The translations under genes and the position numbers were made by a program. Positions 32,506 through 33,566 of a stretch of 33,566 nucleotides of DNA are shown in pieces. Every line of letters begins with the position of its first letter. Position 1 is the stretch's first letter. The notes under the pieces were generated by a model. The model was not told the DNA's origin and ran no database searches. It was given only the letters and a program-made list of their open reading frames with translations. Source of the stretch: Thermoproteota archaeon (GTDB lineage: Archaea; Thermoproteota; Thermoprotei_A; Sulfolobales; Acidilobaceae); the NCBI GenBank assembly GCA_030549835.1, contig JAUQQR010000016.1:1-33566 (forward strand), written 5' to 3'.

Positions 32506-33369
32506 TTGATTTGTGGAATAATCCTTAGCGGTGGCTTATCTAGGAGATTCCAGAAGCCTGGAGAACCATGGACTGATAAAGCCCTCTATAGTATTTATGG
32601 TAAACTTATGATCGAACATTTAATAGATAAACTCTCTAGCATCTCACCTAACATAATAGTAGCTGCAGGCTCTAGCGATAGAGTCAAACTATATAGTAGC
32701 ATAGTTAGAACTAGCAACATAGTATACTCTACAGATGACGAGATGCTCGTAGGCCCACTATCAGGGCTATACTCATCTCTAAAACTATGCACTAATAGCA
32801 TATTCATAGCACTACCTAACGACACGCCATACATACCATTAAAGCTACTAGAGGAGATGATAGAGCTAGTAGAGTCATACGACATAGTATCACCAATACT
32901 ACCAAATGGTCTGATAGAGACAACCATAGTAGCAGGTAAAGTAGATACTGCCAGGTGGATCCTAGAATATCTAAGAGGTAGGGGGAGATCTAAAGTAGCA
33001 GACTTACATAGAGGAGCTCCAAGAATATACCTCATAAATGTTAAGAGTAGAGGGTTTAAACCAGAAGAATTCAAAAATATAAATAGAAGAGAAGACATAG
33101 AAGCTAAGATATCAGACTACCCAGAAGGACCACTAGAAGATGATGTAGAGATTAAGCGAGAATTCAACGTAAGAGATGTAAACGAGAAGAATAGGAGCAT
33201 AATAGGATCACTATGGGGAACACTACTTCTAGGGGGATACCTGGAAGAATTCAAGTTATACACTACAAGAGGAGCATATATGCTAGCAGCATACACCCTA
33301 GAAGACTCACCAAACCACTATGAAAGAGCCCTAGGAAAACTAATAATAGAGTCTCTTAAACCACTATGA
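32506..33369 (+). CDS. MobA-like molybdenum cofactor guanylyltransferase with C-terminal extension
   Basis: 287 aa. Residues 1-190 are a MobA/NTP_transferase domain: ILSGGLSRRFQKPGEPWTDKAL (nucleotide loop, with a small insertion before DKAL), IIVAAGSSDRV, VGPLSGLYSSL, ALPNDTPYIPLKLL (metal-binding Asp), IVSPILPNGLIETTI. Family role: transfer of GMP to molybdopterin or a similar nucleotidyl transfer. The last ~95 residues (from about 193) are beyond the usual MobA length and match nothing I know; they include GSLWGTLLLGGYLEEFKLYTTRGAYML and look helical. TTG 32506 is the start; TATA-like TCTATAAGA (32462-32470) lies about 40 nt upstream. No other moco gene is nearby, so the substrate is uncertain. 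Confidence 0.75.
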   Translation: MICGIILSGGLSRRFQKPGEPWTDKALYSIYGKLMIEHLIDKLSSISPNIIVAAGSSDRVKLYSSIVRTSNIVYSTDDEMLVGPLSGLYSSLKLCTNSIFIALPNDTPYIPLKLLEEMIELVESYDIVSPILPNGLIETTIVAGKVDTARWILEYLRGRGRSKVADLHRGAPRIYLINVKSRGFKPEEFKNINRREDIEAKISDYPEGPLEDDVEIKREFNVRDVNEKNRSIIGSLWGTLLLGGYLEEFKLYTTRGAYMLAAYTLEDSPNHYERALGKLIIESLKPL

Positions 33370-33385
33370 TGATCTAGACTTACTC

Positions 33386-33395
33386 CATATAAAAG
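33386..33395 (+). promoter_or_regulatory. Strong TATA box CATATAAAAG
   Basis: It is centred about 25 nt before the left arm of the hairpin at 33413 and just after the MobA-like gene. It predicts a transcript starting at 33413-33418. Confidence 0.55.
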
Positions 33396-33412
33396 CTTCT
33401 AATCTACCGTTT

Positions 33413-33550
33413 CCCATCCTAGGTTTCTGTATACTCCTAGGATGGGTTGTGCCTCTTGTCCCACTATTCGCAGTGGCTGCCTAGCCACTCTACGCGGGGG
33501 TCCCGGGTACCATTTGAGCCTAACGGCACAAGGGCTCACATCTAGTTTTT
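33413..33550 (+). ncRNA. Unidentified structured RNA candidate
   Basis: The segment is markedly GC-rich against its AT-rich surroundings and folds strongly. There is a perfect 11-bp stem CCCATCCTAGG (33413-33423) with CCTAGGATGGG (33436-33446), a 7-bp stem AGTGGCT/AGCCACT (33472-33478 with 33483-33489), and a long-range pairing TTGTGCC (33447-33453) with GGCACAA (33525-33531). A TATA box is at the right distance upstream, and T-rich TTTTTATCTTT (33546-33556) could end it, giving a transcript of about 135 nt. GC-rich islands in AT-rich hyperthermophiles are usually structured RNAs. I found no 5S, tRNA, SRP or RNase P signature. It could also be the leader of an rRNA operon beyond the window. 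Confidence 0.55.
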
Positions 33551-33566
33551 ATCTTTAGGATAGGAT

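Follow-up and report, generated by a model that had tools for sequence, protein, structure and literature searches.

The element at the contig end

The window analysed here is the whole of contig C38, 33,566 nucleotides long, from a 1.42 Mb archaeal genome assembled in 68 contigs (G000). Positions 33407 to 33566 carry, on the minus strand, the right-hand part of a protein-less, non-autonomous (MITE/PATE-like) element of about 266 bp. Read 5′ to 3′ on that strand, its parts and flank are as follows.

33546 to 33566, minus strand: linker of the miniature element, directly 5′ of the scaffold; kept in full-length miniature copies and missing from tnpB-linked copies.
33407 to 33545, minus strand: very probable omegaRNA (reRNA) scaffold of about 139 nt, 5′ end at 33545 and 3′ end at 33407; assigned by a covariance-model match of 152 bits (the window copy is itself in the model's training set), by continuity with the tnpB frame in homologues and by covariation across 80 loci.
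33387 to 33406, minus strand: flanking DNA, the would-be guide of about 20 nt, UAGAUUAGAAGCUUUUAUAU, predicted for the window copy from the rule that TnpB takes its guide from the flank (PMC8612924).

Just ahead of the element, an ORF at 32506-33369 resembles, by eye, a MobA-like nucleotidyltransferase.

The first-pass annotation of this region described an independent RNA gene; the locus is instead not unique but one copy of a dispersed transposon end. A DNA search of the same genome found 27 places matching query positions 26/28-187, and a covariance model gave 47 matches. Alignment of 20 copies, together with alignment of their flanks, revealed sharp borders, the element starting on the plus strand with CCGTTTCCC at 33407. 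Flanks on either side vary from copy to copy, the sequence beyond the fixed right end being different in each, and no target duplication was seen. Left flanks carry T at -3 in 11 of 14 cases and at -5 in 10 of 14, a TAM signal too weak to call. At copy C67a, the reading frame of a gene had seemed to be restored on taking out 261 bp; this was withdrawn, as the gene's homologues end at the insertion point.

Full-length copies measure 256-266 bp, and the window copy runs beyond the window end into contig C1, as far as the left end AGGGTTGATAGC / AGGGTTGATAGCTG. The last 127 bases of the window are identical in C1, and from this exact overlap we infer the C38-C1 junction. In C1, the remainder of the element is followed by ORFs of protein length, which rules out the pre-rRNA leader that a 16S rRNA gene just past the window would have made of this RNA. 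The overlap resembles a k-mer overlap and suggests that C38 and C1 are neighbours. Assembly breaks fall at or near copies of the element at the window end (33566) and at the ends of C1, C29, C36, C45, and C59.

The best explanation, which we hold with high confidence, is that the window ends in the right end of a miniature IS607-derived transposon whose minus strand encodes an omegaRNA scaffold. It stands on four observations: the repeat and its boundaries, a fold backed by covariation, continuity with tnpB in homologues, and a tnpA remnant behind the same left end.

A covariation-supported fold

Both strands of the region fold well: -53.9 kcal/mol for the plus strand (z = -3.8, none of 200 shuffles as good) and -54.4 for the minus strand (z = -3.7). 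As the two fold equally well, the strand is not decidable from folding. Nor do the copies give a strand signal of their own, since they contain G-U and A-C cells in nearly equal numbers (53 and 48). Strand was assigned from homologues, where the minus strand continues the reading frame of TnpB C-termini, and the fold is listed in that orientation. The percentages and pair counts below come from an 80-locus alignment made with a covariance model fitted to the nested structure, so that they lean upward.

33516 to 33537, minus strand: stem 1 (33533-33537 with 33516-33520), loop containing CCGTT; 5 of 5 pairs altered on both sides, 93.4% paired.
33522 to 33526, minus strand: 5′ strand of the pseudoknot, CCGUU, in the stem-1 loop; 93.6% paired.
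33449 to 33510, minus strand: stem 2 (33506-33510 with 33449-33453), which closes around stem 3 and has a single A-C mismatch in the window copy.
33458 to 33500, minus strand: stem 3, with an outer arm (about 33493-33500 with 33458-33464) and an inner hairpin (33483-33489 with 33472-33478); helices 92.9% and 84.0% paired, 13 of 13 pairs altered on both sides.
33413 to 33446, minus strand: stem 4, the perfect 11-bp terminal hairpin; 95.1% paired, 9 of 9 pairs altered on both sides.
33407 to 33411, minus strand: 3′ strand of the pseudoknot, AACGG, the 5 nt with which the element ends at the flank; assigned by covariation and by an ISDra2-like topology (PMC10097598).

The perfect hairpin noted earlier is present (33413-33423 with 33436-33446), as are the further GC-rich stems. 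Compensatory changes, which the first-pass annotation had proposed to look for, are abundant: 30 of 32 pairs are altered on both sides and 93.1% of cells are paired. The covariation score is 0.500, compared with 0.059-0.097 for slid partners and 0.155 after shuffling. The window copy retains 30 of the 32 pairs, has CGGGA where CATGA is common (69 of 80), and carries the stem 2 mismatch. Stem 2, which was examined by separate segment matching, reads GTGCC/GGCAC in window-type relatives and CCACC/GGTGG or AGTCC/GGGCT in other tnpB-linked RNAs. A pseudoknot between GUGCC in the stem-1 loop and GGCAC (33449-33453) was dropped because the GGCAC arm covaries with 33506-33510.

The retained pseudoknot is absent from the covariance model, and 93.6% of its cells are still paired. 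Its outer pair changes from CG to GC in 20 sequences, mainly from a second genome of the same genus, G002 (loop GCGUU/GCGTT, end AACGC), many of which are related copies representing few independent events. In the omegaRNA of ISDra2, the stem-1 loop likewise forms base pairs with positions -6 to -2 ahead of the guide (PMC10097598).

An Rfam scan gave no family above the gathering cut-off, and a tRNA scan returned nothing. The structured RNA is real and without an Rfam family, as first described, and its fold is strongly supported by covariation; it is nevertheless identifiable, as the omegaRNA of a TnpB. As an object it is of a known kind, the right end of a non-autonomous transposon with its omegaRNA, and goes unrecognised by Rfam.

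Continuity with tnpB places the RNA on the minus strand

In contig C47, a copy lies directly behind a TnpB C-terminus containing a zinc ribbon and a RuvC-III-like motif, and the reading frame enters the repeat on the minus strand. This remnant ORF, ending ...CSKCGFAHDRDVVGSWNTALKLDVSPCAVRLKGCP, continues straight into the RNA. It matches Cas12f1-like_TNB (E 8.7e-15) and guided_TnpB of NCBIfam (E 1.8e-14), the latter with a score under its curated cut-off, as expected of a fragment. In a named relative from the Desulfurococcaceae, Zestosphaera tikiterensis, a TnpB frame of 227 aa passes uninterrupted into a copy with 77% identity, which has the same GGGAAACGG boundary. In the same archaeal family, about 15 further tnpB genes terminate in RNAs of like architecture, their common plan being GATG, stem 1 with loop GTGCCGTT, CCACCCATGA, stem 3, GGTGG, stem 4, AAACGG, and a variable flank. 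At all of these loci, as in the relative G050, RNA and tnpB share a strand and the RNA overlaps the gene's 3′ end; the window copy has lost its tnpB by deletion.

The first-pass annotation had favoured the plus strand, proposing a stand-alone non-coding RNA with its own TATA promoter and a T-run terminator. That reading can point to a suitably spaced TATAAAAG at 33388-33395, to the T-run at 33545, and to a good fold, yet we give it hardly any credence. The TATA box lies in the flank, within the would-be guide and outside the repeated unit that begins at 33407; a TATA-like hexamer occurs within the 45 bases ahead of the hairpin in 4 of 18 copies and in none of the other 14, and the supposed promoter is best read as chance flank sequence. 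The T-run is present (33545-33550) but is part of the miniature-copy linker and is missing in tnpB-linked copies. Finally, in the homologues this sequence forms, on the opposite strand, the 3′ portion of tnpB.

On the minus strand, most miniature copies have two GTTTATAAG motifs, of which one lies in the left end and the other some 40 bases ahead of the omegaRNA; both are candidate archaeal TATA boxes for this RNA. In a second subtype of miniature copies (C68, C29, C45), the motif ahead of the omegaRNA is missing.

An IS607-like parent element

The parent of the miniature element is assigned as IS607-like because a tnpA remnant shares its left end and because a relative carries a TnpA-TnpB-omegaRNA element. 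The remnant, in contig C41, has the same left end as the window element, followed by a helix-turn-helix and the start of a serine recombinase (HTH_17; transpos_IS607, E 2.5e-16, likewise a fragment scoring below the curated cut-off). Miniature copies retain about ten tnpA codons (EKYYSTREV) before the deletion. In the relative, G050:C133 has a TnpA of 218 aa, followed by a TnpB frame of 332 aa and then by an omegaRNA of the window type. The genome G000 also has an IS607 TnpA frame of 224 aa, above the curated cut-off and without an internal stop (C58:66889-67443), which is rather different in sequence. It lies near a miniature copy at C58:65270-65451.

An origin from IS200/IS605 elements, with their Y1 transposase, was assumed at first and dropped on finding the IS607 TnpA remnant. 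Ends bearing an omegaRNA are typical of IS200/IS605 and IS607 elements alike, and it is chiefly general TnpB models that match the window-type TnpB. Against this, no Y1_Tnp was found in genome G000, C41 has an IS607 TnpA frame behind the same left end, and G050 places IS607 TnpA beside TnpB and a window-type omegaRNA. We therefore regard an IS200/IS605 derivative as most unlikely. The left AGG and right GG of the element are compatible with IS607 crossover, the terminal GG of AACGG being a possible counterpart of the IS607 crossover dinucleotide (PMC10711439), yet the element copies of G002 end in GC and not GG.

Judged from sequence, the window element is a core-deleted derivative of this IS607-like parent, comparable to PATEs. 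We propose that internal deletion of an element comprising tnpA (serine recombinase), tnpB, and the omegaRNA would have yielded the miniature form. The scaffold, with its four stems and pseudoknot, stops where the transposon does, which would make the adjoining flank the guide. An IS607 TnpA probably moved the elements in trans. The omegaRNA, if transcribed, would be bound by TnpB supplied in trans, and the TnpB-omegaRNA complex may then cut the empty site, leading to the element being copied back.

Comparison with known elements

Like the omegaRNA (reRNA) of ISDra2, the window RNA is a right-end RNA that overlaps the 3′ end of tnpB in its linked forms and ends at a boundary followed by variable flank (PMC8612924, PMC10097598). 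In both, the fold comprises four stems and a pseudoknot that joins the stem-1 loop to the nucleotides immediately preceding the guide. The window RNA differs in having no Rfam match, in being archaeal, in having lost tnpB in most copies, and in deriving from a parent with an IS607-type transposase.

IS607 elements such as ISXfa1 (PMC10711439) and ISFba1 (PMC11061315) share with the parent of the window element a TnpA with a MerR-like helix-turn-helix and serine recombinase, a TnpB, and a reRNA. They cause no target duplication, and none was seen for the window family, whose right end with GG also fits them. Having no Rfam match, the window RNA is not recognised as the RAGATH-18 RNA of ISFba1-like elements. 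It also overlaps the tnpB frame, whereas the ISFba1 RNA is described as independent of the coding sequence (PMC11061315).

PATEs from Haloquadratum (PMC3119063) and Halanaerobium (PMC7290912) are likewise transposase-free core-deletion derivatives with palindromes near their ends and no target duplication. The Halanaerobium PATE has the same plan, consisting of a left end, the last 58 nt of tnpB, and a 160-nt right end (PMC7290912). PATEs derive from IS605-type elements, however, and the window element from an IS607-like one, so it is best called PATE-like and not a PATE in the original sense. The Sulfolobus MITEs SMN1 and SM3A, compared by description only, are also short (164-320 bp) non-autonomous repeats moved in trans, in archaea of the same phylum; their description includes no omegaRNA (PMC3718332).

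State of the system and breadth of the family

The assembly of genome G000 yielded six TnpB matches, all short or broken, and no intact cognate TnpB. Among the G000 copies, the omegaRNA core is 84.9% alike and the body (left part) 91.5%. Because all TnpB found is broken and the left part drifts more slowly than the omegaRNA part, the system is probably worn out in G000. The copies look like ageing relics, a reading drawn from the lower likeness of the core together with the near-equal frequencies of G-U and A-C.

G002 presents the opposite picture. The core is 95.2% alike over 18 copies (93.5-96.8% within body types), and the adjacent body 81-94%. This likeness may reflect use of the RNA, constraint on a transposase end, or recent homogenisation. 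The G002 loci (L153-L172) carry a related omegaRNA in 18 or more copies, whose cores are nearly identical and whose 5′ bodies are of several kinds; some include a tnpB C-terminal remnant.

Dispersed copies might alternatively be selected solo omegaRNAs, forming a genome-wide guide set for a trans-acting TnpB or a TnpB-derived regulator. If so, the RNA would be kept or spread for use by such a protein in trans. The G002 core, more alike than the adjacent body and common to several body types, argues for this, as do the many copies in many genomes. In G000, however, core and body show the reverse relation and no intact cognate TnpB was found, and conservation of the end could serve transposase binding instead. 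We consider a selected guide set unlikely and retain the miniature transposon as the explanation for the window; use of orphan guides in trans is directly testable in G002-like organisms.

The family is widespread: covariance-model matches occur in 23 of 48 genomes of the archaeal family and in at least 110 of 214 genomes of the order, with up to 15 candidates scored per genome. TnpB is the ancestor of the CRISPR nuclease Cas12. The analysis yields a covariation-supported omegaRNA family outside Rfam and backs the guide-RNA pseudoknot of TnpB/Cas12 with compensatory change. GC-rich structured repeats in AT-rich archaeal genomes can thus be transposon guide-RNA ends that lack their nuclease.

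The Rfam families sot0042 and HgcC appear to be RNAs of the same kind, GC-rich and archaeal, although neither matches the window RNA. In Zestosphaera tikiterensis, L064:964-1115 (minus strand) matches HgcC (E 5e-4) and sot0042 (E 6e-7), neither score reaching its family's cut-off. These matches overlap at the 3′ terminus of another tnpB gene, 997-1917 on the minus strand, which has a Y1-like TnpA frame upstream, and because of this position HgcC looks like an omegaRNA family.
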